In this document: positions 28,901-64,000 of the stretch, one piece after another
Numbering within the stretch: the stretch's first letter is position 1
How the letters are laid out: the number at the start of each line of letters is the position of its first letter
Assembly: GCA_030849075.1 (NCBI GenBank)
Contig: JASAOO010003465.1
Span: forward strand, 1-64,000
Direction of reading: 5' to 3'
Length of the DNA stretch: 64,000 nt
Origin: Zelonia costaricensis
Lineage: Eukaryota; Euglenozoa; Kinetoplastea; Trypanosomatida; Trypanosomatidae
The notes under the pieces: model-generated
Databases searched by the model: none
The model's input: only the letters and a program-made list of their open reading frames with translations
What the model was told of the DNA's origin: nothing
Position numbers and translations under genes: made by a program

Positions 28901-31900
28901 CGGGTGGTACGAGGCGGACGTGGTGTCTGCAACGCCAACGCCGCGTGAGGTGCCAGACACCGACTCGCGGTCCTGCGACGACGGGAGCGGGTCGAGCAGG
29001 GTGCAGCCGAGCTGCGCGAGGGAGTAGGTGAGGGCGACACACAGCCGCGAGGCCCACCGCTTTGCCTCCTCGCCTGGAAAACGGTCCACGAGCACGAGGA
29101 GGGACTCGCGGCATTTCTGCAGGGAGGCCGAGCACGCAGCCAGTGCGGAGGTGGGCAGCAGTGGAAGCGACACGGCGAAGGAGGCGAGCAACGCGCCGAC
29201 CGGGCTGAGCTGCAGACACTGGAGAAAGGTCCCCTCCGCGTCGGGAAGCTGGCGCAGCGCCGCCGACACGGCGTCCACCATCCTCTCGCAGCAGCGCAGC
29301 AGCGCCGTACTGAAGGCGCACTGCAGTGTCTCGAGCCGCACGGCGTCACCGTCCAGCCCGCACCCCGACAGCAGCACCTCAGCCAGGACCTCCAGGAAGT
29401 GGCTCGTCCGCTGCAACTCCTCCACGCTCTTCACACGCAGAGAGCGGTCGACTTGGTATATGGCCTCCAAGAACAGCGCCGTGAAGAGCGAGGCCAGCTG
29501 CTTGGCGGGTTGATTGGCAAGCAGCTTGCAGCACGTGTGCAAGGAGCTGTAGAAGGAGAGCAGACAGCAGTACACCGTCTCCGCTGCCGGCGAACGCTGC
29601 TTGCCGGAGTGGCTCTCGAGGAACTGCAGCCGCCCCGCTTCGGTGAGGAAGCACTGGCAGCAACACTGCAGCAGAGCTGACGACGACGCCGCTTGCAGCC
29701 GGGTGCGGCGCAGGGCAAACTCGACTACGCTGTCGCGGAAGTGCGACGGCGGCCGCGTCGCTGCGCTGCGCCCGTTCCCCTCGCCGCCCTCAGTCCCCGC
29801 CGCAGCGCGTAGAAGCTGCTCCACCGACTCGTAGCAGCCGCCGACTCGCACGGCGAAGTCGACCGGCGAGTGGTACAGCCGAGCCAGCAGGTTGAGCTGG
29901 AGTAGGGTGCACGCCGGCTCGGCCATCTCGGCGGCAGCGGCGGCCACCGGCGTCGTCTGCTGCGCCACCCGCAGCAGCAGCGCAAGCACCGCATCGTCGG
30001 AGTCGAGCAGAAACGGCGGCACAACAGCCGCCCACGCGGACTGGTCGGTCAGATACTGCATGGCGCGCAGTAGGCGCTGGGCGTGTGCTGCGCCGCGCTC
30101 GAGGACGGCCTTACCGCACTGCCACGACGTCGTGTACGGCGCGTGTCGAGCCGCCTCGTTGTGCCCGGCGTAGGCCCACATCTCCCAGATGAACACCTGC
30201 GTCACCGCGTTGGCCCCACCGGCCGCCGCCGCGGCTCCTCTCGGTGGCGCCGCGACAGCGCAGCAGCACAGCGAGTCGCGCGCCGGGTGCGCCGTCACGC
30301 TCTTGACCGTCCACGATACGGGCAGCTCTACGCTTCGCTGGGCGACGAGGCAGCGCCGGTAGCGAGCGTAGTCGAATATGCAGAGCGTGTGGTCGGAGCG
30401 GACGCCCGCCACCGTGTACGAGTCCGGCGACGCGGCGAAAAAGACGTCGTCGGCCTCCTCGATCCAGGCCTGCGGTACAAAGTCGAGCACGAGCCGTCCG
30501 TCCACCGAGTCTTCGACCACGGGGAACGTGTCGACGGCGCACCAGTACGGCTCGCCGTGAGGCAGCAGGGCGTGCTCGTGGTGCGGCGCGTAGTCCATGA
30601 TGACGTTGCCGTACCCCTCGTTGAGCGGGAAATAGCCGCAGAGGCCGTCTTCGTTGCCGTACAGAGGCCTGCGCGCGTCTCGGGCGAGTTCGGCGGCGGT
30701 GCGGGTATGCTGCCACGCGCGCACCTCTGCCATCAAGCCGACGAAACTCTTGCCCACCACGCACTTTGCCTGAGCGATCGAGTTGGGCGACACCAACGCG
30801 GGCTGGCGGCTGACGAGCTTAAAGTCGAGCCACAACTCCCACGCCGCGCCGTTGAAGTTGAGCGCGACGTGCCACCACCGCTCCAGAACCGAGAGCTTCC
30901 CGGCAGATGTGTACGTTGCGAACGACGGCCCCAGCCGCGGCGTGCGAGCCCCGCCACGCCACCGCACGCCGTCGCCGACCGGCTCGAGCCCGAGCAGCAC
31001 CTCATCCACGCTTTTGTCGCCAATGGAGAGAAAGACCTGATCCTTTGTCACGCTGCGCGGAAAGACCCACATTTCGATGCAAAACGGGTGCAGCTTGTCC
31101 TTGAGCGTCACCCGACCCACGGACACAGACACAGACTTGGTAAAGTGGAACGCGGCGCGGCGACCGGAGGCAGTGTTGAAGGAGGGGTTGCGCAGCAGCG
31201 GCGCCAGCTCCGTCGCAGTGGCGGCACCGGCGAGGACGTCGCTGAGGACGGCCTCGCCGACGTAAAGGCAACCGCGTGTCCGCTGCGGCGGGTGAGACGA
31301 GACGAGGCAACACAGCCTGTCCTCGCCGCCCATGCAGAAGCGGAACCGTACGTCCGCCAGCGACAGACCAGCCGTGCGCAGCGACAGCCGGCCGTGCCGC
31401 TCGCTGTCTGGGCCTGTTCGGTGAACAGAGAAGTGCCAGCTCTGCTCGTCCCGTCCAAGCGCGCGAATGCACAGCACGTCAGCCTCGCCGAGGAACAGCA
31501 CCGCATCGCCGCGTTGGCCTGGCAGCGGGCCGACGCGGCGCTGCGTAAGCCGCGTGCCCATCGTGCCCATTGCCTGGTACTGCGCGACGTGCGTGTTGCC
31601 GAGGACTAGAAGAGTGCGACCATGGGCGGAGCACCGTATCGGGTCTCTCGGACGGAACTGGGGCGGCAAGATCAGCGCCTTGACGAGAAAGTCCGCCATC
31701 GTCGCGGCGAGGACGCTGACGCACTGCGAGGAAAGCCGCGGCGGAAAAACCGGGGGCTCGAGCGGAAGGGCGCCGCCACTCGCCTCCACGATGCACTTGA
31801 GCAGCGGACACAGGCGACAGCTCCGCAACGCCAGACCTAGTTTTGTGCGCACGACAGCGGCGTGCAAGTTGCCGTCGGCCGCGGCGTCGCCGGCGTGCGC

Positions 31901-32413
31901 CTCGACGATGCGGAACAGCTCCAGGCACGACTGCGGTGACGCGAGGTCCCAGTTCACGTGCGCGACGCTGTCGAGCAGTACGGACGTGTACGTGGCCCCT
32001 CCGTCGCCCTGTGTGAGGGCGCCGAGCAGCGCGATGGTGCTCAGAAGGCTTGCGTGCTGCTCCTGCGTCGGAAGCGATGCACCCATTGAGACGACAGCCT
32101 CGCTCAGCCGCTCCCGAATCTGCTTTGAGGAGGATAAGGACAGCTTGACCTTGCGGAAGCGCACCGCAAAGACGCGCTCGATGCGTGTCGAGCGCGCTGA
32201 AAGACGTCTCTGCAGGGCGGACAGAAGCCCCTCTTGTAGTCCAGTTGCCAGCGACGCCTCCAGCAGAAAACTCGGCACGCACGCCTCATCCAAGGCGGCG
32301 GGAGCGTGAGCCAGGGCAGCGCTGCCATCGCGCTCGTCTGCCGCAACGACACTGTCAACAATGTCCGCAACGCTAAGCAGACCCCAGTCATCTGTGGCAC
32401 TTGCAGAGCTCAT
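19934..32413 (-). CDS. Giant HECT-domain E3 ubiquitin ligase with SPRY and lectin-like domains
   Basis: The 4159-residue protein carries, in order, a concanavalin A/laminin G-like domain (about residues 390-610), a SPRY domain (about 1540-1710), a second lectin-like domain (about 2375-2560), an acidic stretch, two more SPRY domains (about 3050-3290 and 3365-3535), and a C-terminal HECT domain (about 3750-4130). The catalytic cysteine is C4093 in ATCFFAIELPDYST, matching the HECT consensus; the 67-residue tail from that cysteine ends in PPNSDEE. HECT enzymes take ubiquitin from E2 on this cysteine and pass it to substrates; SPRY and lectin-like domains probably recruit partners. The frame is open another 205 codons upstream, but the splice-like AG at 32449-32450 lies just before the ATG at 32411-32413 (MSSASATDDWG), so this start is preferred. 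The frame is intact over 12.5 kb. Confidence 0.93.
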   Translation of the reverse strand: MSSASATDDWGLLSVADIVDSVVAADERDGSAALAHAPAALDEACVPSFLLEASLATGLQEGLLSALQRRLSARSTRIERVFAVRFRKVKLSLSSSKQIRERLSEAVVSMGASLPTQEQHASLLSTIALLGALTQGDGGATYTSVLLDSVAHVNWDLASPQSCLELFRIVEAHAGDAAADGNLHAAVVRTKLGLALRSCRLCPLLKCIVEASGGALPLEPPVFPPRLSSQCVSVLAATMADFLVKALILPPQFRPRDPIRCSAHGRTLLVLGNTHVAQYQAMGTMGTRLTQRRVGPLPGQRGDAVLFLGEADVLCIRALGRDEQSWHFSVHRTGPDSERHGRLSLRTAGLSLADVRFRFCMGGEDRLCCLVSSHPPQRTRGCLYVGEAVLSDVLAGAATATELAPLLRNPSFNTASGRRAAFHFTKSVSVSVGRVTLKDKLHPFCIEMWVFPRSVTKDQVFLSIGDKSVDEVLLGLEPVGDGVRWRGGARTPRLGPSFATYTSAGKLSVLERWWHVALNFNGAAWELWLDFKLVSRQPALVSPNSIAQAKCVVGKSFVGLMAEVRAWQHTRTAAELARDARRPLYGNEDGLCGYFPLNEGYGNVIMDYAPHHEHALLPHGEPYWCAVDTFPVVEDSVDGRLVLDFVPQAWIEEADDVFFAASPDSYTVAGVRSDHTLCIFDYARYRRCLVAQRSVELPVSWTVKSVTAHPARDSLCCCAVAAPPRGAAAAAGGANAVTQVFIWEMWAYAGHNEAARHAPYTTSWQCGKAVLERGAAHAQRLLRAMQYLTDQSAWAAVVPPFLLDSDDAVLALLLRVAQQTTPVAAAAAEMAEPACTLLQLNLLARLYHSPVDFAVRVGGCYESVEQLLRAAAGTEGGEGNGRSAATRPPSHFRDSVVEFALRRTRLQAASSSALLQCCCQCFLTEAGRLQFLESHSGKQRSPAAETVYCCLLSFYSSLHTCCKLLANQPAKQLASLFTALFLEAIYQVDRSLRVKSVEELQRTSHFLEVLAEVLLSGCGLDGDAVRLETLQCAFSTALLRCCERMVDAVSAALRQLPDAEGTFLQCLQLSPVGALLASFAVSLPLLPTSALAACSASLQKCRESLLVLVDRFPGEEAKRWASRLCVALTYSLAQLGCTLLDPLPSSQDRESVSGTSRGVGVADTTSASYHPSYLRVLCNGQRRLSTERDALIKNLQSGVGVVSRVFEELQKKDVSALRVVRDEQLRETERQVMAACCALLLPTRALREATAELLLPAFQLVLKLRPWLLSKRQESKEYVALMRERAVFLAQFEPIAEVGDDETPGTGPGAGGAAGALARVRAGASAAAAATADPHAARMTQRQRWRRLFRSWKAMRQLKALMSSREEAADMNVGAEVVACFQSEVCTAEMEAAVAWRARKAQYRLVGLQLLWQLTEEARHSVLLARVLHPVIARTLCGWHYADGVDGCSVEQLSRLQGAFFLLLDAAVKAYEGVKTHAQPWVLLLAALFSCPFRRTDLRKLRNTSVSADVLRRLWAPEASPEQLYQRVNGTLPWPLRATKLSPAGCASTMTVGATGLTLRSAGGRGSCVAPCTWTRTQRRDGVSFYYEVDIVDLYQGGYVSVGLGPADYSLSQMPGWDTDSLAYDGLEGAVYTNRNARVIGSTFGMGDVVGCGWYSEVGDVFWTRNGKVVHTLQAALTSEQICPLIGMKGKGCVLVNFGARPFMYQSWPTPAPVSPSRALSPPGSAGAVRPGTAGYDLETSSWDGWDAFRLFSMRTATVVRDAADHAAAGTVAATSMAELAESAGRCLDALVGALSPAAEVPLAQLPIPARYATTLLGHLTLLCKLLRGVPEDVMTVHTSRVASLLTRMATRWLLTTSRAVLFTPEESEAVTALLTAWYHTMYLTPPSVSVPHSAAAPAASTPGSLAAARAKSPTAASAATTSAAPLPSFLHVLLQLAGCIITTNDTRMSASETRHVLEANSTPTIVTSCDTAHWLALSLLQQLNTDRDVHSHHAWRAELHTWLKATLSAAATAAGGGKGGSGRDVLLALAVLGGVPRLAVPGDRVMAHLAPHTVAPVLLLHASWAEETCEVLELQSSDAAAARVIKRLPLRFVHATVRGDEPPGDTFPIKGDAAHGELAAVVARLAQAWFPNVTPSSRFGEDVCLVAQLTCVLVRCAERHVVTVPPDLIRPLSQLTGMADDVTSNISQVRLELVLSLWGLLQCRQRRGQPQNSFSTARAERAARMSGGERLAQQRVSGGRGLVRVGGAVAPASFASASMRLRTFAALDPALHRQLLSEAPEEPDMAYDENDEGSEVDDDVDSDLGDGAGGLYPLHGVYDMDDEEDGGDEDEAEPSRTTATAAATVMGTTGLAQTDPGLSVSSTPDALFLPAEREAFDTIHFNSGCVRVVSGAPVGLSFTVDLLLRATNVERHQILFAQSLRGGSAATAVQMVARITRGSLEFGWLPCAPGGEAACDPADPATICAFALSDADVNAWIRITFVQSGTTLSLFRGGLLLDTRTMRGGGGALLQEELRLGGIPGQLAATAFIGDMKNFRVYELALRPAMVEQLRRLNSSLSTFLESHLALLLRTSRTGIENASRTPVSVGLDIWTEGDVGYLDESEEVAARPSEAREASAQEVDFGAESEETDLRTLSEPLPSQQAVLWHRKRSQSREQLLNICASCYHQLVAFYSAHILAHALCHVVKSPAGLAESDQSTMLALKDDACVARLAHWAVSTSGTDMATLLGEMWLSLSRASSWRSEEPAKVTAMWEMGNALLGELLRIAQRSQHMRVFESAHPQRPFASDVYEVQVAGQRAYAVFIDERSVASWRLVTVSADRTLGALLSEFCSTALCSFEVALPQFFLTVRSAAESSNWGHRVAVVHDYQPQLRAMRLFQSALATFLTIDAPSGSAVAYVWSAECLQALRAVAQRNTSKTRLLALTCLNHLLLYSQRFRTAPPPLSLPLLLHDVRRMALRHYRRRLLTQRVLARFIQIGMEGYVMQRDATQCWQAAQTPRVLSEPLSGATAVATSTASTDAGAASSHFQQQRQEQLRLYRQRDSSADRVSVQKLRNPQSLGLEWNGDGVCIVRGEGLGGSVVAGVPLTGGRWYYELRVGGTGNISIGVLPVPMALLGDQETPLPLTAAMMQGHQPVALNGCTGVLHRAGRHQQPHQSLSTAPLWFSRDYLGVVMDIPAQRCTVLVNGVQAASFAFGPEAAAADGDTAAAASAAAAASGARDASALTSDDEGAGEASGDDGGGARARRARQSRQRTVGRDAMAPVAYYPYVSLEQTDSVSLNFGAAYFEHELPSGCLPVDPTNLSLGTLFPYNQMRALQDIAAHLLTGGHYPLPPFYHEEADPFAGSTERVGPAHVSVHASASVQVNMEDVKNAGLEFETVTGDCAVGAGAWYFEVTLRTQGLMQIGWMQKGEVPHGNGRGVGDSSTSWSVDLFRRVMWHRGVPEPVNLPRRWATGDVVGCAVDMAHGELSFYLNGRPVTGTAALESGSPLTETCTFHGVPQGLYYVPAVSLRSGGAVSFNFGSSPFKFKPEGFNPLGVPDSWNERMDTFYNNAAAASTQQRLLAMQEAWRVLRRVHPTMDSESTTSAATVSPPLQPTTSTATTAVSAPAVHSWSMEAFEKNLQPYRLVVQAIDSFSSDVTKAFTKNAEEELAQYLAAYTYPVTSGGPSSAAALAERSWDVFKVLKAVSKVVHALLPFLSLNTTHPSLMTLLFLSLRTLLFRAVRRKLVESVLTVSSVRAEQYRISINRAKAHTEGQSVKASIFGQTFALLGAQSPRIFQTHQRFWNTVFLGEGAEDAGGPFREHLSEMCRELMSTRLPFFVPTANHVHNTGSHREAYVPAASARSTYDLEAFVFIGKLMGGALRSEDPLDLFLPPLVWRYLCACPITEAEVEQVDAICVQCVREFRTLSTSDEATAARADGDDSEGTATELFEDVFGEEFFVTQLSDQSTRELIDDGAHTRVTLARSAEYAEALLQARLHEFDLQLRKMREGLLSVVPEVAVLLLTPEELELRVCGQADYTPEELRKGASYEGLTSEDRRVQLLWKALEEASPLQRRLFLRFVSGRDRLPVKLRVLPLTTQADADTVLPRAATCFFAIELPDYSTLEVMKRKLYYSIENCADMDTDFNARVVDEDEAPQLSVALDDGQQDINLPPNSDEE

Positions 32414-33182
32414 TTGCGCGTGCGGTGATGGCCGGCTGGCGAGCGGCACTGACAGAAGGACAGGGCTGGAAATGCTTGAACAGTGTAGGAGCCGGTGGAG
32501 GCGTCGGGACGGCTTGACCTCAGCAAACGAAGGCCTAGAACAGTGTTTGTAGCCAGGAAAGCACCTCGGCACTAGGCAGGCTTGGTTTTCTTTCGTTGAC
32601 AACAGGAGACGCTGGGGCAAAGGGAGTTGTGATTCAAGGGAAGCAAAGAGTCGTTGGGGAAACGAAGAGAAACAAAAATCAAAGCAGCGAACTCTTGTGT
32701 GTACGCCAGTGCTGTTTTTTGCTAGAAACAGAACCGCAACTCGAGAAGTCAGTTTCTGTGCGGAAAGGCACTTTTCTGATGAAAATGTAGCGGCAAGCGG
32801 AGTCGATGTGAGAAATCCGCCTGAGTAACAGAAGAAAGGGGGAAAAAGAAGGAAAACTGAAGGGACATGAAAGACGAGGAGCAGACATCTCGGCGGCTTT
32901 CGCCTTCGTGCTGCACGTGGCTGAAGCGTGACAAAGTGGGCTACAAGAGGCACGTAGTGCTCGTCTCTCTCTCTTATGCGTGTCATCACATACAGAGAAG
33001 CTTTAGCGCAATTCATGCTCAAGCGCACCTTCGTCGGTGACGCACTTGTTTTTCTGTGTTGCGCCTTTTTTCCCCTCCACAGGAAAAAAAAAATGTGGCA
33101 AAGCCGCTGTTCAGCTGCGAAGCTGCTGATGGCACGTTCAGCACCTCACTCGCGAAAAAGAGGAGGCATCACAAAAACGCCG
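32414..33182. other. Intergenic with splice region of the HECT gene
   Basis: In the transcript a pyrimidine-rich stretch ending TGTCCTTCTGTCAG puts a good acceptor AG at 32449-32450, 36 bases before the HECT ATG. The rest (A-rich, 32640-32880) should include the 3' UTR of the next gene. No separate gene seen. Confidence 0.5.
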
Positions 33183-36444: not shown

Positions 36445-37977
36445 TCAGATACTGCGCAGTGTGATGTGATCGAGAAGCGTAAGATCTACACTTGTCTCGC
36501 TAGACAGCTCTTTTTCGCGAAGCGACTGCAAACGTGCAAGGACCTCGTCCAGACTCGCGCCCTGCTTCATGCGCACACAAAAAGCTGTGTACTTTTTGGA
36601 GGAGGCTACAGGTGTCAAGCCGTTGATGTGGTAGCTCAGCTTTCGCAGGTCCACTTTGCCGTTCTCTGGTGTTGATGTGGGCGGCGGCGTTTCCGTGGCA
36701 AAAAAAAGTGCCTCAATTTGCTCACAGTAGCACGGCACGGTGGACTCGAGGACGTACGTGCTGGGACTGATGAGTTTGTCTTCGGTGTCAACGCAAAAGT
36801 AGTAGAGGCTGCCGTACGCTGAAATGACGTTCTTGACGTTCTGGCAGGCGTCGGGGTAGAGCTGGAGCATCAGCGAAAATGCGACCCCGGTCATGTACGC
36901 GTCATAGGCTGCCTCGTGCGCTTTGTTTTGCAGCCGGACGGCGTAGTCGTTGTAGCTGTAGAACCCGGGCGGCAGACGGTAGCGCTGCGTGAATTCGTCG
37001 CTGCCGAGTGCGGCGCGGCGGCGACACTCCTCGTAAACGAATCCCAAGTGCGTGGCCTGAAACGCGTCGACGCCGGCCCACATCGTGGCCATGGTTTTGG
37101 TGTCGTAAATTACGGGAAGGGTGCACTGCAGCTGCTGCTTGAAGACGTCGTAGTCCGTTGGCAGCGGTGTTTCGTGCATGTGCATCATGAACATGACGTC
37201 TTGCATAAAGTTGTGCCCAATGATGGGCTTGTTGCTCTGCACGAGGACTTTCCAAAACTGTCGGAAACCCAGCTGGCGCGCGCGGTCGCGCTCGCGCTGC
37301 ATCAGGCGCTTTTCCTTTTCGCCGACCCATGCGTTCTGGTCCAGCTTGGTGAATTTGAATTTCATCTTTTGGGCAAGGAACGGGCGGCCGTCGAATGTGA
37401 CGGTGATGCGGTAATCGTAGCGGCGCCCGACGAAGCCGTGAACGCGGCGCGCGAGGTCTGCAGTGCAGGACGTTTCAACGGTGAGAGGATCGCCGTCGGT
37501 GGCGATCCAGTCGTCGACAGCCTTGAGAAGTTCATCGACGGTTTGCTGCTCGTCCGCGTCGAATGGGGCGGCGTGCTTTTTTTCGTAGGCGGCCTCCTCG
37601 TCGGCGTTGCAAAAGGACAAGCCAGAAGTGAGCCACGTCTGGAAGTTCATGTGATTTGCCGCAAGGAACGAAATCGCGGAGAGGCTGAGGCGCAGGTCGC
37701 CGGCGTCGTTGAGGAGGTAGAAATTGTACGGGCGAACCTCGTACGTGTTGGCGCCCGTTTTTGTGAAGAGCGCGATGCCCATTTGAAACGCGTTGTACGC
37801 CTCGACGGCGACGCGCTTGGCGTGGTAGACTGCCTCGGGTGAGGCGCCGAGGGGGACCGTCGTGCCAGGCACATCGACACCCGTCATCTCCTGGTCGACG
37901 GCGCAGAAGTCGCAGCGCGCCACCTCAGCGGCAAAATCGGCGAGCGCCACCGTCTGGTTGAATCGCGTAATGTCCAT
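36445..37977 (-). CDS. PARN: Poly(A)-specific ribonuclease PARN (deadenylase)
   Basis: The 510-residue protein is a DEDD-family 3' exoribonuclease of the PARN type, which shortens mRNA poly(A) tails and trims some non-coding RNAs. All catalytic residues are visible: D28 and E30 in FCAVDQEMTGV (same numbers as human PARN), D260 in IIGHNFMQDVMF, and H354 and D359 in HEAAYDAYMTG. A region resembling the RNA-binding middle part lies between about residues 140 and 230, and an RRM-like C-terminus follows. The frame is open 146 codons upstream, but that part is proline-rich and crosses pyrimidine-rich DNA, so the ATG at 37975-37977 (MDITRFNQT) is preferred; it also aligns with the family N-terminus. 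Trypanosomatids have several PARN paralogs; which one this is cannot be told. Confidence 0.93.
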   Translation of the reverse strand: MDITRFNQTVALADFAAEVARCDFCAVDQEMTGVDVPGTTVPLGASPEAVYHAKRVAVEAYNAFQMGIALFTKTGANTYEVRPYNFYLLNDAGDLRLSLSAISFLAANHMNFQTWLTSGLSFCNADEEAAYEKKHAAPFDADEQQTVDELLKAVDDWIATDGDPLTVETSCTADLARRVHGFVGRRYDYRITVTFDGRPFLAQKMKFKFTKLDQNAWVGEKEKRLMQRERDRARQLGFRQFWKVLVQSNKPIIGHNFMQDVMFMMHMHETPLPTDYDVFKQQLQCTLPVIYDTKTMATMWAGVDAFQATHLGFVYEECRRRAALGSDEFTQRYRLPPGFYSYNDYAVRLQNKAHEAAYDAYMTGVAFSLMLQLYPDACQNVKNVISAYGSLYYFCVDTEDKLISPSTYVLESTVPCYCEQIEALFFATETPPPTSTPENGKVDLRKLSYHINGLTPVASSKKYTAFCVRMKQGASLDEVLARLQSLREKELSSETSVDLTLLDHITLRSI

Positions 37978-38569
37978 TTTTGGAGGATCCGAGGTAGTCC
38001 GAGGAGTAGGGGGGGGGTAAGGAAGGGCTGTGGTGACGGTGTGTTTTTGCTCTGCAGGTCTACGGTGAACGGTAACTGAGCGTGTGACGAGGGCGGGGGG
38101 GGTGGCGGGAGGTGAATGGAGGGCGAGAGTTGAGCGAGGGGGCGAAGCACGGTGCCACCGCGACGTGGGCGACGAGCGGTGTCTGGGGTTCTGCTGGGGT
38201 GATGATGCGAAAAGGGAGTGCTGGGAGGGGGGGGGAAGGGGAGGTGGCGGGCGAGTCACGGTTTGATCGGCACTGTCGAGGTGCGACAGTACGACGTGGA
38301 CATTAAAAAACCACGGCTGCTTGTTGCTCACGGGAGCTGAGAAAAACAAAAAAGGAATGAACCGCAGAGCAGGCGGCAGGGGAAAAAGGTGGTTCATGCC
38401 CTCGCGGGGCCTCAAAATGTGGTAGTGAGGTTAGGGGCGCTGCCTAGTAAAAGTCGAGGCAGCGGTCCTTAACAATGCTTGAACGGGATGGCTAGGATCG
38501 ACGACAGGTGTTGTGCGCGTAGGAGTTCTCCTTTGGCGTGCTTTGTTTTCGCGGAGGGAAGCGGTCGTC
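37978..38569. other. Intergenic between PARN and the tRNA cluster
   Basis: Plus strand is G-rich (38000-38030, 38088-38120, 38220-38260), giving the pyrimidine-rich splice region of PARN. No further RNA gene recognised directly upstream of tRNA-Cys. Confidence 0.5.
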
Positions 38570-40430: not shown

Positions 40431-42206
40431 CTACGGCGGGGAGGCGGCAAAGTTGAGGGCACACCACGCCGCGTGGAAGCTGTACGTGCCGGTCAGCACG
40501 CACAGCACCACCGCCTGGTTCTCGAGGATGGCGACCAGCGACGCCTGCTTTGGCAGCACAAACTGCTCCACGAGCGGCAGCGCCGCACGCACCCGGTACG
40601 AGACCCACACCACGCCGCCAAGGAGAAGCGCAAAGTCGCACATCGGGTACTCGCCCGGAAGGAGGCGGAGCGTGTAGAGCACCTTGCCGTTCGCCTCCGG
40701 CGTCGCCATGAACATGTGCGTCTGCACCACGTACGCCTCCATCGCGAACGACCCCACAAACGCGCAGGCCGGCACGTAGCCCCGCCGCAGGCGTGCAAAG
40801 ACGTTCCGCAGCGCTGCGTACGCCACGATCGGGACCCACGAGGTGTACGGCAGGAAGAGGGTGTACGCGACCGTGTCGTAGCGGAACGCCACCACCGCAA
40901 AGCCAACGAGCAGCAGCGCCGCGACGCACGCCACGGCGACCTTGGCCAGCGCGCCAACACGCTCGCCCGCGTCGAGCCGGCGCAGCAGCCGGTCCACCGC
41001 CGCCGAGTGGTGGCCAACCACGACGCCAACGAGCCAGATCCAGTGATCCTGGCGCGTGCGGAACTGCCACTCGTGCAGCGGCTCCACCTTCAAGATCGGG
41101 TTGTCGTACCGCACCAGCCACAACAGCGGCGACCAAACGGTGCGAAACAGCGCCGGCGACACGGGGAGGTCCCACAGAACGCAGCACAGCAGCGCCACGA
41201 ACCCCACCTTGACGGCAAACGTGCGCTCCGTACGCCACGCGCCCGGCCCCAGCTGCGTCAGCGCGTACACCACCACCAAGATGAGGCTCAGCTCGGCAAA
41301 GAGGTGGTACAGCATATACTGGTCCCGCAGCACGGCGCACGCCGCGACGACGAAGGCGTTGAGGCGCCACAGCAGGCGCAGCAGCAGCACGACACCCTGC
41401 TGCGGCCCCATCTCGGCGGCGAAGTGGCGGTAACTGACCACACCGCTCACAAACGTGAAGGCGGACAAAAAGACCCGCACCGGGCGGTCGAGGGCGGTGT
41501 TGTCAAAGTAGTTGTATGCCATGAAGAGCAGCTGCTGCCAGCCCAGCCACTCCTCCAGCTGGCACCGGTTCAGCCACGCCATGGCCGCCGGCTGCACTGG
41601 CGGTGGTGCCAGCTGGGGCGACGGCGGCGCTGGCGGCGGCACAGACGACGAGGACCCCGCCGCCCCGTCGAGCGCCAGCCCAGACACCCTCCGCGCCGTC
41701 ACGAGCACGCCCGCGAGGGAGGCGAGCACGAGGAAGCCAAAGGCGTCACCGTCGTACTGCCGCGGCCGCTGTGGCAGCAGCGTGGTGCGGTCGCAGATGA
41801 AGAGCAGCAGCAGGTACACGCTCAGCTCACTCAATGCCCGCAGCGCGGCGGCCGTCTCGTGGCTGCACCGCATCCACGCGTGCACGCAGTTGGACGCGTG
41901 CAGCGCTATGGCGGTGAAGCAGAGCGAGAAGGCGGTGAGCTGCACCGGTGTCAGAGGGCCGGCAGGGAACTCGGTCGGGTGCATGCGCACCATCAGCGAA
42001 AAGAGGCAAGTGCTGACCAGCGAGATGAGGAAGACGAGGACGGACGTCATGATCGACACCGCCGGCACCTGGCTGAGGCGCCGGAGCACCGGTGGCACCC
42101 ACGCCCCTTTGCACGTCGCCTCCTCCACCAGGAAACTGCTGTCAGACTCGCGAGACTCGCCGAGGCTGCCGTGCAGACACTCAGACAACCACACCGACGA
42201 CGCCAT
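40431..42206 (-). CDS. CAS1-like multi-pass membrane protein (O-acyltransferase membrane module)
   Basis: The 591-residue protein has about ten or more hydrophobic helices. A central segment, NRCQLEEWLGWQQLLFMAYN followed by YFDNT and RVFLSAFTFVSGVVSYRHF (about residues 208-260), matches the conserved start of the CAS1/CASD1 membrane domain (RdQTeEWKGWMQ...FLxYHYF...iRvfvaaYvfmTG). Family knowledge: these proteins help O-acetylate glycans in the secretory pathway (sialic acid in animals, capsule and cell-wall glycans in fungi and plants). The catalytic lumenal SGNH part with a GDS motif is not visible in the first 190 residues, so this looks like the membrane module alone. The frame upstream begins with GTG; the ATG at 42204-42206 (MASSVWLSE) is used. 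The substrate is unknown; Leishmania is not known to make sialic acid. Confidence 0.8.
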   Translation of the reverse strand: MASSVWLSECLHGSLGESRESDSSFLVEEATCKGAWVPPVLRRLSQVPAVSIMTSVLVFLISLVSTCLFSLMVRMHPTEFPAGPLTPVQLTAFSLCFTAIALHASNCVHAWMRCSHETAAALRALSELSVYLLLLFICDRTTLLPQRPRQYDGDAFGFLVLASLAGVLVTARRVSGLALDGAAGSSSSVPPPAPPSPQLAPPPVQPAAMAWLNRCQLEEWLGWQQLLFMAYNYFDNTALDRPVRVFLSAFTFVSGVVSYRHFAAEMGPQQGVVLLLRLLWRLNAFVVAACAVLRDQYMLYHLFAELSLILVVVYALTQLGPGAWRTERTFAVKVGFVALLCCVLWDLPVSPALFRTVWSPLLWLVRYDNPILKVEPLHEWQFRTRQDHWIWLVGVVVGHHSAAVDRLLRRLDAGERVGALAKVAVACVAALLLVGFAVVAFRYDTVAYTLFLPYTSWVPIVAYAALRNVFARLRRGYVPACAFVGSFAMEAYVVQTHMFMATPEANGKVLYTLRLLPGEYPMCDFALLLGGVVWVSYRVRAALPLVEQFVLPKQASLVAILENQAVVLCVLTGTYSFHAAWCALNFAASPP

Positions 42207-43014
42207 CGGCACGAGAAAACAAACAAAAAAACGAAAACAAAGCCGAAACTAACACAGTCAACGGAGCTCCTCCGTTTCACCCTACTCTCCAGCGCCCTTC
42301 AGATCGCACCGAAGTCGCGCTCCGGTCGACCACGCCGGGTAGGACGTATGAGAGAGAGAGCGGCGTGCCGCAGGAAGGGAGGGGGACAAGGGAGGGAAGA
42401 AGGGGCGCAAAACAAATGCAGACGCACACACGCACAGGGATACGCACGCCTGTAAACGTGCGCACACAAACAGACAACAAAATAGAGCAACTAGAGGAGC
42501 AACGTTGGTCGAAAACGGAGGAGCTGGCCGTTTGGACAAGCCGGAAAGCAGAGCACTGTGGGGGTCTGGTGAGGAGCAGAAATGCGAAGCGGACCGAAAG
42601 GGGGAGAGAGAGAACGCTGAGAGGAAAGGGAGGGGGGGGGGGAGGGGAGGGAGGGAGACAACAAGGAGCGCACGGTGCGGCGGTGAAGAGGCCGAGTCGC
42701 GGCACAGCCCGCGGGTCAACTGCACACCAGGTTTCTAGGAAGACGCACACACGCGGGGCGAGGCAGCGCGTGTGCCGCTGACCGGACGGATGGGACACAC
42801 GTGCTCAACGGAACGCACCGGGGCATTAAAAAAGGGCACCGACGTCCCACTACGCTTGTGTTGACACGCACAGCGATGGATGGTGTGCGGAAGGGGGGGG
42901 GAGGGAGGGGCCAAGTGGGATAGCGCTACGGCAAAAGCAGCGTGGCCCAACACACCCTGGTCGTGGCGCCGACGCTGCTGCTTCACCGTGTGCTTACGGG
43001 TAACGTGCGTGCGT

Positions 43015-43557: not shown

Positions 43558-43561
<4 letters not shown>

Positions 43562-43589
<28 letters not shown>
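43562..43589. repeat. (CA)14 microsatellite
   Basis: Fourteen uninterrupted CA units directly downstream of the TBC gene stop, probably inside its 3' UTR. A second short CA run follows at 43592-43600. Confidence 0.9.
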
Positions 43590-43638
43590 TGCACACACAC
43601 AACAACATACAGGCTTGATAGGTGCAGCCGCAGCACCG

Positions 43639-45993
43639 CTAGAACTTCTCAAAGGTGACGTCGGGGTGGGACGCCTTGCAGTCGTTGCACACGGCCCCAA
43701 GGTCGTCGTTCCACCACGCGGGCCTGTTCTTATCGCAGATATTGCACGGCTCAAACGTCTCCGTCTTTGGCGCCCGGTGCAGCCGCGGCGCGATGTTCTT
43801 CTCGTAGACCACGCTGCGAATCAAGTCGATCTTGTTGCCGTCTTCGCCCAGGTCAATGGACGGTGCGCGCTGCAAGATGGCGCGCACGTCCTCGCGGTCG
43901 GCGACGCGTGAGTCGAGCCGCATCAGCTCGTACAGCTCGTTTGCCTCCGCCGACGTCTTGATGGCAAGCAGCTGCGAGCGGAAGTGCTCGACAATGGCGA
44001 GGCAAAAGCGGATCAAGTACCGGGGCCCGCCTGCCATGAAGGCGTCGAGGAAGTCGAACAGCTCGTCGAACTGGAGCACGTGAATGCACAGGCCGGTGAG
44101 GATCTTCTGCAGGTAGGTGTCCGGCCAGAACTTCAGCGCATCGAGGTGCTGGGCCACTTCGGGCTGCACCTTCTGCATAAAGTGCTCCACTACCCACGCA
44201 CTCGTGGCGAAGCCGACCGCCTCGGCGGCCCAGTGCCCCTTGAGGTACTCGGTCGCCACAAACCGAATGACCGCCGCCGCCTCGTCCTCTGTCATCACCA
44301 GCATGCACAGCCCGGCCAGGTAGCTCATTGCCTGCCCGTACGCGTTGAACTCGTGGTAGAGCGCGTGCAGGAAGGCCACCATTTTTGCGCGGTGCTCCTC
44401 GTGGAAGAAGGTGCGGTGCGCATCTTTGATGATGACGCGCACCACCTCCTCGTCCTCGTCCTCGATCTTCACGTACTCCAGCGGCTTGCGGTAGAACGCT
44501 GCCTTCGCCAGCCACTTCTCCATGCGCGGCCGCAGCTCGTCCTTGTGCGCCTCGAGGAAGCCGTTGTTGAGGTTCAGCAGCGGCGCCCGCTCGACCACCT
44601 CGGCGGCCCAGAAGTGCGGCATGTCAAAGTACGGGCCTGTGAAGTGGGTCGGCTCGCAGTACGTCGGCGGCTTCTTGGGAGCCGCCGGAGGCTCGGTCGG
44701 TGGCGGAGCGGACGCTTGAGACCCGGACTCCACCGGCGCTGGTGCGCTCGCGGGAGACACGGTGCCAAAGCCGAAGGAGATGGGCGCTGCGGCTCCTGCC
44801 GGCGACGCAGCCGCAGACGGCGCGGCCGTCCCAAACGCCGGCGCCGCCGTGGGCGCCGTCGCTGCCGCTGGCGGTGCTGTGCGGAAGCCGAAAACGGCGG
44901 CGCCGTTTAGCGGGGTACCGAATCCGAAAGAAGCCTTGGGCGCCTCGCCGAGAACAGAGCCGTTCTTCGCTGCCTGGCCAAAGAGCGAGCCGGTCTTCGG
45001 CGCCTCGCCGAGGACGGAGCCGCTGTTCGCTGCCTGGCCAAAGAGCGAGCCGGTCTTCGGCGCCTCGCCGAGGACGGAGCCGCTGTTCGCTGCCTGGCCA
45101 AAGAGCGAGCCGGTCTTCGGCGCCTCGCCGAGGACGGAGCCGCTGTTCGCTGCCTGGCCAAAGAGCGAGCCGGTCTTCGGCGCCTCGCCGAGGACGGAGC
45201 CGCTGTTCGCTGCCTGGCCAAAGAGCGAGCCGGTCTTCGGCGCCTCGCCGAGGACGGAGCCGCTGTTCGCTGCCTGGCCAAAGAGCGAGCCGGTCTTCGG
45301 CGCCTCGCCGAGGACGGAGCCGCTGTTCGCTGCCTGGCCAAAGAGCGAGCCGGTCTTCGGCGCCTCGCCGAGGACGGAGCCGCTGTTCGCTGCCTGGCCA
45401 AAGAGCGAGCCGGTCTTCGGCGCCTCGCCGAGGACGGAGCCGCTGTTCGCTGCCTGGCCAAAGAGCGAGCCGGTCTTCGGCGCCTCGCCGAGGACGGAGC
45501 CGCTGTTCGCTGCCTGGCCAAAGAGCGAGCCGGTCTTCGGCGCCTCGCCGAGGACGGAGCCGCTGTTCGCAGTGGTTGTCGACGGTGTCGATGCTTTCGC
45601 AAAGGCGGCGAACGGCGACGGCGTGGCAGACGACGGGGGTGCCGGGGCGCTGGACGGGAACGCGGCCGCGACGGCCTTGAAAGGCGACGCCGAGGCGGCC
45701 GGCGTGGCCGCTGCCTCGGCGGGGTACATCTTCCACACCTCCGCGTCCGACTTGCCCGAATTGGCCTTGATTTCACGCGCCTTGCGGTAGATTTCGCGCA
45801 GCTCAGCGTTGATCTTCTCCGCGTTTGTGTGTGCCACCTGAGTGTCGGCAAAGTAGTCCGCCGGAATGGAGGAGAAGGATTGCGCAAAGGACGCCAGGGC
45901 CGCTGCGTAGCTGCCGAAGGCACTGAAGCACTCCTTCGCACGGGCCTCCTGCAGCCCAGTCACTTTCTGCAGGTCGGCGGCGGTGGCTGACAT
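43639..45993 (-). CDS. TBC-domain GTPase-activating protein with FG repeats and a C-terminal zinc finger
   Basis: The 784-residue protein starts at the ATG at 45991-45993 (MSATAADLQ); the 12 codons before it begin with TTG. Residues 1-40 look like a small helical UBA-type bundle. Residues about 141-351 are a perfect 20-residue repeat (NSGSVLGEAPKTGSLFGQAA), followed by a non-repeated FG region with FGFG, VFGF and AFG motifs. A TBC domain spans about 515-690 and keeps both catalytic fingers: R527 in IIKDAHRTFF and Q554 in AYGQAMSYL. The C-terminus has CNIC and CNDC, a probable zinc finger. TBC domains stimulate GTP hydrolysis on Rab GTPases. FG repeats belong to nucleoporins, and I recall a T. 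brucei FG/TBC protein co-purifying with Mex67 and Ran, proposed as a RanGAP; this is probably its orthologue. Confidence 0.88.
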   Translation of the reverse strand: MSATAADLQKVTGLQEARAKECFSAFGSYAAALASFAQSFSSIPADYFADTQVAHTNAEKINAELREIYRKAREIKANSGKSDAEVWKMYPAEAAATPAASASPFKAVAAAFPSSAPAPPSSATPSPFAAFAKASTPSTTTANSGSVLGEAPKTGSLFGQAANSGSVLGEAPKTGSLFGQAANSGSVLGEAPKTGSLFGQAANSGSVLGEAPKTGSLFGQAANSGSVLGEAPKTGSLFGQAANSGSVLGEAPKTGSLFGQAANSGSVLGEAPKTGSLFGQAANSGSVLGEAPKTGSLFGQAANSGSVLGEAPKTGSLFGQAANSGSVLGEAPKTGSLFGQAAKNGSVLGEAPKASFGFGTPLNGAAVFGFRTAPPAAATAPTAAPAFGTAAPSAAASPAGAAAPISFGFGTVSPASAPAPVESGSQASAPPPTEPPAAPKKPPTYCEPTHFTGPYFDMPHFWAAEVVERAPLLNLNNGFLEAHKDELRPRMEKWLAKAAFYRKPLEYVKIEDEDEEVVRVIIKDAHRTFFHEEHRAKMVAFLHALYHEFNAYGQAMSYLAGLCMLVMTEDEAAAVIRFVATEYLKGHWAAEAVGFATSAWVVEHFMQKVQPEVAQHLDALKFWPDTYLQKILTGLCIHVLQFDELFDFLDAFMAGGPRYLIRFCLAIVEHFRSQLLAIKTSAEANELYELMRLDSRVADREDVRAILQRAPSIDLGEDGNKIDLIRSVVYEKNIAPRLHRAPKTETFEPCNICDKNRPAWWNDDLGAVCNDCKASHPDVTFEKF
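44941..45570 (-). repeat. 60-bp tandem repeat array in the TBC gene (nine identical units plus edges)
   Basis: Nine consecutive 60-bp units (45001-45540) are identical base for base. One diverged unit (44941-45000) and a half unit (45541-45570) flank them. Each unit encodes 20 residues with one LFG motif. Identity at silent positions means recent expansion or gene-conversion homogenisation. Because the period is a multiple of three and the unit lacks stops in most frames, long spurious frames appear on both strands here. Confidence 0.97.
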
Positions 45994-47238: not shown

Positions 47239-49482
47239 TCAGAGAAAAAGAAGGCGCTGGATTTCCTGCACGGGCAGCCGCCGCGCCATCCAGTCGTTGA
47301 GCCCCGGCATGTGGTAGAACTTGTAGAGCAGCGCGCCGAGCTCGTCGTCGGACATGGGCGTCTTGAGACGCTCCTTCACGCAGTCTTGAAACTCGGACAT
47401 GCCGAGGTTGCCGTCGTAGGCGGACTGCGAAGCGGTGCGGAAGGAGCGCACGGCGAGCGTGCGGCGGGCCTCGATGAGCGTGAGGAAGCGCTGCAGCGCT
47501 GTCTCGGCCTGCGCCTCGGCGTCGGCCCGCTTCGCCAGCATCAGCGCGCTCTGCACCGGGCCGCGCTGCACGGTCGCACCGCCGCGCGTGTCGCCCCACG
47601 CCCGCTGCGAGTCGCGTGGCTTGAAAGTTGACATGAACTGCTGCTGCATGAGCTGCTCGGTGAACTCGGCGAGCGTGACCCATCCGTCGCCGTCCCCGTC
47701 GGCGCGTGCCATGACGAGGTCCAGCTCGGCATCCGACGCGTGCACGCTCGCGTCGCTGAGCACCTCGCGGACGTTTTCGCGCGTCAGCCCAGCCGTCGAG
47801 GAGGAGGCGTAGTGACGGAACGCGTCCGTGGTGCGCGAAAAGTGCTGCTGCAGGTAGGACGCAACCTTGCTAAGGATCTCCTGCGTGCGGAAGTACGCCT
47901 CCTCCATGTTCGGCATCCCCATCTCGAGGTACCGCTTCGTCCGCACGTCCATTTCCTTGAGCCGGTAATCGACGCCTTCCAGGCGGATGGTCTTGCCCAC
48001 CTCCAGCTGCGTCGGGTCACGGAGCTCATCAACCGCGCGGCGAGCGAAGATCTTGCCGCCGAGGTGGCCGCTGTTGTGCACCGGTAGCTCGTAGACAGAG
48101 ACGGTGTCGTCGGCGAGGTAGTAGCAGATCATGAACTGCCGGCCCTCGTTCTCCTCTGACGGGTTGACCATCTCCGCACCAAAGCGGAAGACGTCCTGCG
48201 CGTAGCGGGTCAGCTTCACCGCGTCCTTCTCGGCCGCCGAGTCGTCAAAGATCATCGTCGATGCACCGAAGCGCTTTGGCAACGCCGCACCCGCGGCGGC
48301 CGTGTAACCTCCGCCGCGCGCCTCCTTCGCCACGCGCGGCCGCCGCTTGCCGACTTGGATCTCGTCCCCTTCGCACGGCGGGGCGGCGACGGCGGGCTGG
48401 GGGATGCCGCGCGCCTGCATGTAGGCCCGCGTGTGCTCGTCGCAGTCGTAGACAAAGAAGGAGCGGGTGAAGATGTCCACCGTGGTGCCGGTGCGCAAAT
48501 CCTCGGCGGTGAGGCACACCGGCGCTGGCCCCTGCGGCCGGTTGAGCGTCTCGGGAGAGAGCAACACGGCGCGCGCCTCCTTCGGGATGCGGCGGCGGCG
48601 CACAAAGACGGGGTTCGGGTCGCGGCCGTCGTTCTCGGCACGCTCGAAGAGCACCGCGATACTGCCGTCGGCAAGGTAGTAGTAAATGTGGAACTGCCGC
48701 TTCTCCCACACGGCGTAGAACCGCAGCACGTTGCGGTCGAACTCGAAGAAGTCGCGGGCCTTGGTGCGCTCGGCAGGGGTGAGCAGGCTGGCATGTGTGC
48801 CGGCGCGCGTCGCGGCCTGCACCTCGATGACGCGCCGCATCTCAACGTGCTGCTCATCCATGCCGGCGGCGCGGCGCATCGTGCTCGCCTCAAACTCGTC
48901 GCGCGGGTAGTCGAGCGGCTCCGGCTGCGGCATCCCCATCACCTCGAAGAACTCGCGCGTGAAGGCGTCGCAGTCGACGAGCTGGTAGTCGATCGCGCGG
49001 CACGGGATAGAGGCGCCGATGCACAGCCGGAAGACGTCCACGTCGTCCGGGCGGAAGCGCGAGACGGTCGTGCCCTTCTGCAGGCCACTGTTCGCCACCG
49101 CGGGCGTTTCCGTGACGCTCATCGACCCGTCGGCGAGGAAGTAGTGAATCTTGACCTTGCGCACCCGCCACGTCTCGATGGTGCTGCCCACGACGTCCTC
49201 GGTGTAGTAGGCAAAGAAGCGCAGCACCTTGTCGTCAAGGGTGCGCCACATGGGAAAGCGCTGAAGAATGACGCGCACCGGGATGCCGCACCCCTCCGGC
49301 CCAACCACCGCCTTCACCGCCGACCCGTCCAGCGCCGCCGCATCGCGAATCGTGCGCGTGCCGTCCTCGTCAACGGTGCAGTACTGCCGCCTACCGTGGG
49401 AGGCGGGGTGGTTCAGCTCCGCAAAGGCGAAGCCCGGCAGCTTCGGCAGCGCGTTGTACACCGTCTTCTCGCGGACGCTCAT
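47239..49482 (-). CDS. EFHC/RIB72-type axonemal protein (three DM10 domains plus EF-hand)
   Basis: The 747-residue protein begins at a true ATG. It has three DM10 domains at about residues 70-175, 225-360 and 420-535; each shows the core pattern of aromatic residues followed by a '(Y/F)YLADGS/D' strand (IHYFLADGSMSV, IYYYLADGSIAV, ICYYLADDTVSV). A canonical EF-hand loop follows near residue 625 (DGDGDGWVTLAE, ligands D1, D3, D5 and E12), and a degenerate one (YDGNLGMSEFQDC) near 710. Length and layout match EFHC2 and Chlamydomonas RIB72, which sit inside doublet microtubules of the axoneme. It should therefore be a flagellar microtubule inner protein. Calcium binding looks possible at the first EF-hand only. 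Confidence 0.9.
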   Translation of the reverse strand: MSVREKTVYNALPKLPGFAFAELNHPASHGRRQYCTVDEDGTRTIRDAAALDGSAVKAVVGPEGCGIPVRVILQRFPMWRTLDDKVLRFFAYYTEDVVGSTIETWRVRKVKIHYFLADGSMSVTETPAVANSGLQKGTTVSRFRPDDVDVFRLCIGASIPCRAIDYQLVDCDAFTREFFEVMGMPQPEPLDYPRDEFEASTMRRAAGMDEQHVEMRRVIEVQAATRAGTHASLLTPAERTKARDFFEFDRNVLRFYAVWEKRQFHIYYYLADGSIAVLFERAENDGRDPNPVFVRRRRIPKEARAVLLSPETLNRPQGPAPVCLTAEDLRTGTTVDIFTRSFFVYDCDEHTRAYMQARGIPQPAVAAPPCEGDEIQVGKRRPRVAKEARGGGYTAAAGAALPKRFGASTMIFDDSAAEKDAVKLTRYAQDVFRFGAEMVNPSEENEGRQFMICYYLADDTVSVYELPVHNSGHLGGKIFARRAVDELRDPTQLEVGKTIRLEGVDYRLKEMDVRTKRYLEMGMPNMEEAYFRTQEILSKVASYLQQHFSRTTDAFRHYASSSTAGLTRENVREVLSDASVHASDAELDLVMARADGDGDGWVTLAEFTEQLMQQQFMSTFKPRDSQRAWGDTRGGATVQRGPVQSALMLAKRADAEAQAETALQRFLTLIEARRTLAVRSFRTASQSAYDGNLGMSEFQDCVKERLKTPMSDDELGALLYKFYHMPGLNDWMARRLPVQEIQRLLFL

Positions 49483-50589: not shown

Positions 50590-51519
50590 TTACTCCACCA
50601 GCACGTCGAGCTCCTTCAGAATCTTGAGGGTTTGCCCAGTGCTATTGAGCGTATAGAAGTGGAGGTGGTGGTAGTCGAGCCCAGACGCGCGGATGTACTC
50701 GATCATGCGCACGCACTGGTCCACGCCGTACGCCTTTAGGGCATTGGGGTCATTCTTCAGCTCCTCGACGCGCTGGCGCACCTCAGCCGGGACGCTGGTG
50801 CGGCACAGCTTCACCATGCGCTCGAAGCCGCCGTAGGTGGTGATGGGGAGAAGCCCAGCGAGGATGGGTACCGTGATGCCGATCTCCCGACACCGCTTCA
50901 CGAACTTCACGTACAGGGAGGGGTCGTAAAAGAGCTGCGTGATGATGAAGGCAGCGCCGGCGTCCACCTTCTCCTTGAGGTACTCCAGCTCCAGCGCGTA
51001 GTCCTCCTCGGAGATGGTGCCGTCGTCGTTGATGCGACTGGGGTGGCCCTCGGGGTACCCGGCGACAGAGACGCAGAAGTAGCCGTCGTAGGTGGCGTGG
51101 ATGTAGCGCACGAGGTCCTTAGCGCACGCAAAGCCGTCGGGGTTGGCCTGGAACTCCGCCCCGCTCGGCGGGTCGCCACGCAGGGCAAGAATGTTGCGGA
51201 TGCCGTGCGTCTTGGCAAAATCGAGGCCCTCCTTGATGAGGCCCTGCGGCATGTTTGTGCATGTGATGTGCATGTTGATCGGCGTCTCGGGGTACGCGTG
51301 CTGCAGGTCCTTGCAGAGGCGCATCGTCGTGTCACTCGTGCGACCGCCGGCGCCCCACGTGAGGTCGAGAAAGACGGGCGACTGCCGCATAAAGTCCGGG
51401 ACGAGCGTCTGCATCATGTCCACCTCCGCCTTCTCGCTGCGAGGCGGGTAAAACTCGAAGGAGGTGTACCACTTGTTCGCATCCTCGGCGGCGAGGGCGT
51501 CGCTGATGAATCCGGACAT
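50590..51519 (-). CDS. MTHFR: Methylenetetrahydrofolate reductase, catalytic domain only
   Basis: The 309-residue enzyme is a flavin-dependent reductase converting 5,10-methylenetetrahydrofolate to 5-methyltetrahydrofolate, the methyl donor for methionine synthesis. The start is a true ATG. The barrel signature WYTSFEFYPPRSEK (catalytic Glu at residue 22), the segment DLTWGAGG, and NILALRGDPPSG (with the conserved Asp) are all present, followed by GYPEGHP and the Gln-containing FIITQLFYD. Length equals bacterial MetF; the C-terminal S-adenosylmethionine-binding regulatory domain of most eukaryotic MTHFRs is missing, so feedback inhibition by that route is not expected. Several brucei-group trypanosomes are thought to lack this gene, which supports a Leishmania-lineage source. 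Confidence 0.95.
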   Translation of the reverse strand: MSGFISDALAAEDANKWYTSFEFYPPRSEKAEVDMMQTLVPDFMRQSPVFLDLTWGAGGRTSDTTMRLCKDLQHAYPETPINMHITCTNMPQGLIKEGLDFAKTHGIRNILALRGDPPSGAEFQANPDGFACAKDLVRYIHATYDGYFCVSVAGYPEGHPSRINDDGTISEEDYALELEYLKEKVDAGAAFIITQLFYDPSLYVKFVKRCREIGITVPILAGLLPITTYGGFERMVKLCRTSVPAEVRQRVEELKNDPNALKAYGVDQCVRMIEYIRASGLDYHHLHFYTLNSTGQTLKILKELDVLVE

Positions 51520-63191: not shown

Positions 63192-64000
63192 TGCCGTGCC
63201 GCGCGTCCTTCGAGAGTCCGTTGACAATGGTCAGAGCAACGTGCGCGTCAAGTGTGGCACGTGTGCGACTGCGGGTGGGATGCAAAGCCGGCCAGTGCGC
63301 CTCGCTATGTCAACGACGGCACAGCGGACCCGACGAAGTCAAAAGGGCAGCAGCTGGGCCGGCACAGGACGGAGGGGGTGGGGTGGGGTGGATGAATGCG
63401 AGGCGGTGGCTGAACAGGACAATGTGCTCGTGCCAGACACGAGATGAGAGCGGCTACCAAATCACTCTCCTTTCTACGCTGCACGCTGTGACGCGCTGGG
63501 GGCTGGTGAGAAGAAGGGGATTGGGGGAGGGGGGAGGGTAAGCGAGCTGGAGGCGAAGAAGAGAGAGAGGACTGGCTCTGACCGAGGCCGCTTCTCCTCT
63601 CGTGTCCCAGCGGGCACAAAGGAGCAAGGCGAGAAGAGCGCACGGTGGCACCCCCGCCGGTCAGAGCGGCAGCACCTGACCTCCAAGGGCTGGGGACGCG
63701 CGCGCCGCGGGACACTGCTGCACTTCTGTGGGAAGGCGACACAGCACCACAGGAAACAGGATGCGGATTGCCGGTATTCGCAGTTACAGTCCTCTGTCAA
63801 GTACCTTCTTGTCTTCGCCTGCCGCGGAGTGCCAGGGAGAGAAGGCGAGTGCAGGAACTGGAGGAAAAGGTGCGACCGTCAATGCTTGGAAAACGCCAGC
63901 AAAGGGAAACGTGACCACCGCACGAATGCACACACACACACGCACACACACATGCTTGCATGCACGGACGCACTCGTTCGACACCGCGAACGGCTGCCGC
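63192..64000. other. Right-edge intergenic, no gene seen
   Basis: Upstream flank of SEC23. Plus-strand purine tracts (63365-63385, 63515-63575) would give the pyrimidine-rich splice region of SEC23. A CA-rich stretch lies at 63927-63950. No gene reaching the right edge is supported. Confidence 0.5.

Follow-up and report, generated by a model that had tools for sequence, protein, structure and literature searches.

A predicted TAP_C-like domain at the N-terminus of the FG-repeat TBC protein of Zelonia costaricensis, counterpart of the proposed trypanosome RanGAP

The stretch of DNA analysed here (the window) comprises positions 1 to 64,000 of contig JASAOO010003465.1 of the trypanosomatid Zelonia costaricensis, and the coding sequence at 43639..45993 on the minus strand specifies a protein of 784 residues that combines phenylalanine-glycine (FG) motifs with a TBC domain. 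It is the counterpart of Trypanosoma brucei Tb927.10.7680, also named TBC-RootA, GAP (GTPase-activating protein), RanGAP or TbTBC9 (statements on published work are drawn from parts of the sources cited). The frame is unbroken from the ATG at 45993 to the end of the stop codon at 43639 and, as a preliminary description of the sequence had claimed, holds the FG region, the TBC domain and a C-terminal CxxC...CxxC finger together. An alternative open reading frame of 796 residues begins at an upstream TTG; the ATG was chosen because the records of relatives begin at the same position. The preliminary description listed no N-terminal domain. We find a UBA-like domain there (residues 5–48, 45850..45981), assigned by profile matches and predicted fold to the TAP_C type of NXF1/Mex67.

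Relatives were collected by searching proteins twice; in each search, the roughly 8000 candidates with the most words in common with the query were scored. The searches gave 53 and 73 relatives, in total 77 distinct proteins, which with the window protein make up the 78 rows compared below. All rows with a named organism are kinetoplastids except one transcriptome record, P0039. The Pfam TAP_C profile hits 20 of the 31 N-terminal pieces of the family, and the relatives P0037 and P0051 exceed its cut-off. A PDB profile search found 4wp2 (E = 0.084), and the five best PDB matches to the predicted fold are UBA chains of Mex67 or Nxf2, from two entries. The cysteine at the FG-pocket position is kept in 25 of the 31 pieces. 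By family profile and predicted fold, then, the N-terminal region is a putative TAP_C (UBA-like) domain of the NXF1/Mex67 kind, with FG-peptide binding as its candidate function by analogy. Alignment and predicted fold place conserved helices directly behind it (residues 51–96, 45706..45843), in which I61, N62, L65, Y69, R73 and W87 are conserved in 28 to 31 of the 31 pieces. When the genome was searched with the N-terminal domain, the window gene was the sole strong carrier among the best candidates scored, the next reaching E = 0.04.

Residues 97–440 (44674..45705) form the FG linker, which is probably disordered: the predicted local distance difference test score is mostly below 50, and FG is in excess. 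The preliminary description put LFG at about ten occurrences; exactly ten are present, at residues 157 to 337 with a spacing of 20, all of them copies of one repeat. The tandem array (10.6 copies of 60 bp, 44935–45570) contains ten units of 20 residues each, NSGSVLGEAPKTGSLFGQAA, at 44968..45567 (minus strand), which are base-for-base identical in the DNA. As all ten are one identical 60-bp repeat, the ten LFG units count as one event and not as ten. Such identity suggests that the units were amplified or homogenised very recently, or else an effect of the assembly, and the copy number may depend on the assembly. The FGFG and AFG motifs previously mentioned lie at residues 355 and 406 (both SFGFG) and at 25 and 386, respectively. 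Residues 93–440 hold 16 FG, where shuffled sequences average 3.1 (0 of 5000 shuffles as high). Collapsing the ten copies to one leaves 7 against 1.1 (0 of 5000), and removing the array leaves 6 against 0.8 (1 of 5000). Above-chance FG in a disordered region, the mark of an FG nucleoporin, is present in the window protein, and an FG excess upstream of the TBC domain (p ≤ 0.01) occurs in 41 of 53 relatives, fragments counted. By eye, the motif SVLGEAP is also seen in the linkers of relatives, in fewer copies. In three relatives (P0044, P0045 and P0046), the FG motifs stand in front of the UBA-like domain and not behind it.

The TBC (RabGAP) domain occupies residues 511–676 (43966..44463). The profile search proposed in the preliminary description returns PF00566 over this region (E = 4.4e-16; score 59.6 bits, threshold 25.2), the same profile is found in all 78 rows at E ≤ 10, and all nine Foldseek matches at E ≤ 0.001 are solved TBC domains. 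Both catalytic fingers lie at the residues predicted earlier: R527 (44413..44415), the arginine finger, in IIKDAHR (IxxDxxR), and Q554 (44332..44334), the glutamine finger, in YGQ (YxQ). In the alignment, the first position is arginine in 76 of 78 rows with two gaps, and the second is glutamine in 77, the remaining row being the 240-residue fragment P0075 with lysine. The C-terminal zinc finger (residues 750–772, 43678..43746), also anticipated, has CxxC at 750 and 769. Each of its four cysteines is conserved in 77 of 78 rows (one gap). It is B-box-like in some relatives, with matches to zf-B_box in 19 of 78 members (best 1e-8), to DUF7573 in 47 (best 0.00063) and to ArfGap in 18 (best 0.0036). 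The Pfam matches of the window protein contain no leucine-rich repeats, the fold of the classical RanGAP.

Full-length relatives run through Trypanosoma; P0033 of T. equiperdum, for example, lies in the same tree as the window protein, and orthology to Tb927.10.7680 is established via this near relative and not via the T. brucei record itself. A family profile of the N-terminal domain, built from the 31 pieces (some of them among the rows searched), matches 62 of 78 sequences at E < 1e-10, the window protein included. The preliminary description had named orthologues lacking FG motifs as evidence against a nuclear-pore GAP, and such sequences exist in part: upstream of the TBC domain, 51 of the 62 carry two or more FG and 11 carry one or none, where FG inside the N-terminal domain are counted. 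On these sequences, the UBA-like domain is a more widely kept pore-type feature than the FG motifs. Ten of the 16 rows without the domain start near or inside the TBC domain (P0054, P0055, P0056, P0061, P0063, P0067, P0068, P0074, P0075 and P0076). In P0038 and P0058, the profile detects no N-terminal domain and FG motifs are present; in P0071, with about 109 residues upstream of the TBC domain, it detects none either. P0052, P0053 (Perkinsela) and P0066 have about 180 residues there with 2, 0 and 1 FG, and the profile matches at most over the trailing helices (P0066, E = 1.3e-4; P0052, E = 0.04). These three retain the TBC domain and the zinc finger, but no UBA-like domain and no FG-rich linker are seen in them, which may be a joint loss or an older state.

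A tree of the TBC part, made by a quick method from 73 of the 78 rows (P0068 and P0074–P0077 excluded), gathers the majority of FG-bearing rows in a single clade of 55 members (Shimodaira–Hasegawa-like approximate likelihood ratio test, 98). Outside it, P0051, P0052, P0057 and P0058 carry at least two FG, and no FG occurs in several of the rows that bear the domain. Given its long branches and unnamed rows, the tree fixes neither the root nor, in consequence, the sequence of gains and losses. P0077 of T. melophagium is a second protein, of 345 residues, with the N-terminal domain and no precomputed Pfam domain; two TBC-RootA copies are reported for T. theileri and T. grayi (PMC5399786).

The same genome encodes Ran (top PDB matches Ran, E = 4e-100) and Mex67 (PF23056, E = 1.2e-114). 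In the tail of this Mex67, no TAP_C is found by the method that detects TAP_C in the RanGAP relatives. The tail (L043:2767–3117, the Mex67 locus; relatives P0078–P0107) is nevertheless conserved, with Ala, Arg and Trp invariant in the 22 of 32 printed tails that are aligned, and by eye it appears UBA-like, although Pfam gives neither TAP_C nor UBA there. This conservation is relevant to the report that TbMex67 is without a canonical UBA (PMC6609230). Since the conserved tail could be a diverged UBA, we do not claim a transfer of the domain from Mex67 to RanGAP.

In T. brucei, Mex67 captures Ran, RanBP1 and TbTBC-RootA (PMC4758718), in agreement with the co-purification mentioned in the preliminary description. 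The T. brucei protein localises in pore-like dots (PMC5519215) and is placed on the cytoplasmic side of the pore by BioID, by a localisation mode that is probably unique and in which Nup140 and/or Nup149 may take part (PMC11825100). These nucleoporins, with 101 and 18 FG, both co-purify with Mex67 (PMC4758718). TBC-RootA of T. brucei has an N-terminal extension of about 200 residues and dual fingers (PMC11101121), a layout that the window protein shares; the passages of that and other accounts of the counterpart give no TAP_C-like domain. P0033 is laid out in the same way and has 6 FG in total, whereas the linker of the window protein spans 347 residues against 84 and contains the ten identical SLFG units. 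An earlier survey of 2011 listed excavate RanGAP candidates in its weakest category only (PMC3032688). The profile, the predicted fold and the cysteine at the FG-pocket position link the N-terminal domain to the TAP_C of NXF1/Mex67, from which it differs in lacking the tryptophan of the 'NW' motif, in being followed by extra conserved helices and in standing at the N-terminus of a GAP rather than at the C-terminus of an export receptor. With the classical RanGAP (Rna1/RanGAP1), the window protein would share its proposed substrate and its cytoplasmic-side placement, but it has a TBC fold instead of leucine-rich repeats and a dual-finger active site; the classical enzyme reportedly acts without an arginine finger. 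The protein itself was already known, and among the papers listed in the literature searched (subscription papers and preprints lie outside it), no description of a TAP_C-like domain on this protein was found; the domain and its distribution are what we add.

We consider it probable that the protein is a kinetoplastid TBC-type GAP whose substrate is Ran and whose site of action is the cytoplasmic face of the pore, docked there by its TAP_C-like domain, with the FG linker as a possible site for Mex67. The TAP_C-like domain would dock the protein on cytoplasmic FG nucleoporins such as Nup140 or Nup149, a role that its homologue plays in export receptors. Mex67–Mtr2 would find a binding place on the FG linker when it arrives with its messenger ribonucleoprotein. 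The TBC domain would then provide its arginine and glutamine for hydrolysis of Ran-GTP, a step suggested by position and partners, and this hydrolysis would give mRNA and protein export their direction. Action on Ran at the pore is the most likely candidate activity on the basis of localisation and co-purification in T. brucei. The preliminary description had proposed that a Rab-type fold was recruited as RanGAP. The proposal fits the published data on the T. brucei counterpart and is already in print; the recruitment itself remains an inference.

Several observations weigh against this reading. For the window protein itself, residues 1–88 match TAP_C at E = 0.011 (15.7 bits, under the gathering cut-off of 21.3), and the Pfam scan of the full-length protein lists no TAP_C; P0033 reaches only E = 0.13, and P0006 of Leishmania major has no match. 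Four unrelated sequences outrank 4wp2 in the PDB profile search, and the Foldseek E-values of the N-terminal domain are weak (0.46 at best). The tryptophan of the ctMex67 'NW' motif is replaced by an aligned glycine, and the FG pocket might be covered by the helices that follow the domain. FG motifs are scarce or missing in 11 of the 62 domain-bearing sequences, and P0058 carries FG motifs and no detected domain. Ran (L020) retains the switch residues, among them the tyrosine and glutamine on which the classical RanGAP mechanism relies, and this does not discriminate between GAP types. The literature passages on the counterpart contained no GAP assay on Ran.

The protein could instead be a GAP for a Rab such as Rab2, relocated to the nuclear rim, with Ran co-purifying only by riding on Mex67 or karyopherins. 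TBC domains typically act on Rabs, the solved relatives matched are RabGAP/TBC domains, and TgTBC9 of Toxoplasma, a dual-finger member of the same nominal RootA clade, is an endoplasmic reticulum protein that works with and prefers Rab2 and requires both fingers (PMC11101121). The T. brucei member, however, is located at the pore and fails to compensate for the loss of TgTBC9 (PMC11101121), Mex67 recovers RanBP1 as well as Ran, and the BioID placement is on the cytoplasmic side; we regard this alternative as improbable. Nor do we give much weight to a mainly scaffolding role, in which the UBA-like domain and the FG linker would interact with each other or with ubiquitin and the protein would be a mobile nucleoporin with minor GAP activity. 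Binding in cis is possible in that one chain carries both FG motifs and a domain of the FG-receptor type, UBA domains elsewhere bind ubiquitin, and matches to UBA_4 and UBA_8 occur in 3 and 2 of the 78 rows. A scaffold would need neither R527 nor Q554, yet both are near-invariant, and cis binding is unlikely as the sole role of the N-terminal domain because sequences with no more than one FG also retain this domain. That the domain is merely a three-helix bundle, UBA-like by convergence and with no part in FG binding, seems very improbable: sequence and fold both pick the NXF/Mex67 subtype and not UBA domains at large, and P0037 and P0051 clear the Pfam threshold.

More speculatively, the kinetoplastid Ran switch and the mRNA export receptor might share one docking system, an extension that we hold to be doubtful. 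RanGAP would carry an NXF-type FG-binding domain, undetectable on Mex67, in addition to FG repeats, and would bind cytoplasmic FG nucleoporins by one part and Mex67–Mtr2 by another, giving a Ran-driven, TBC-based replacement of the missing Dbp5/Gle1 remodelling step. The 2025 study of the pore did not name what anchors RanGAP (PMC11825100), and that of 2016 left open how Mex67 meets Ran (PMC4758718). The N-terminal domain makes the anchoring testable, and the 44-residue FG-receptor-type domain and the FG linker are two separable, specific constructs. If true, the recruitment of a RabGAP fold to the role of RanGAP would clearly exemplify the replacement of one GTPase switch system by another.

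A (CA)n tract (43558–43601) lies some 40 bp past the stop codon of the FG/TBC gene. The neighbours identified by Pfam, all on the minus strand, are a triple DM10 protein that also matches EF-hand weakly (47239–49482), a Cas1p-type acyltransferase (40431–42212), a CAF1-family ribonuclease (36445–38415) and a Sec23/Sec24-type protein (60693–63227). The window also carries genes for methylenetetrahydrofolate reductase (50590–51519) and homocysteine S-methyltransferase (1856–2818), and the mechanical list of open reading frames contains one of 4364 codons on the minus strand at 19934–33028.
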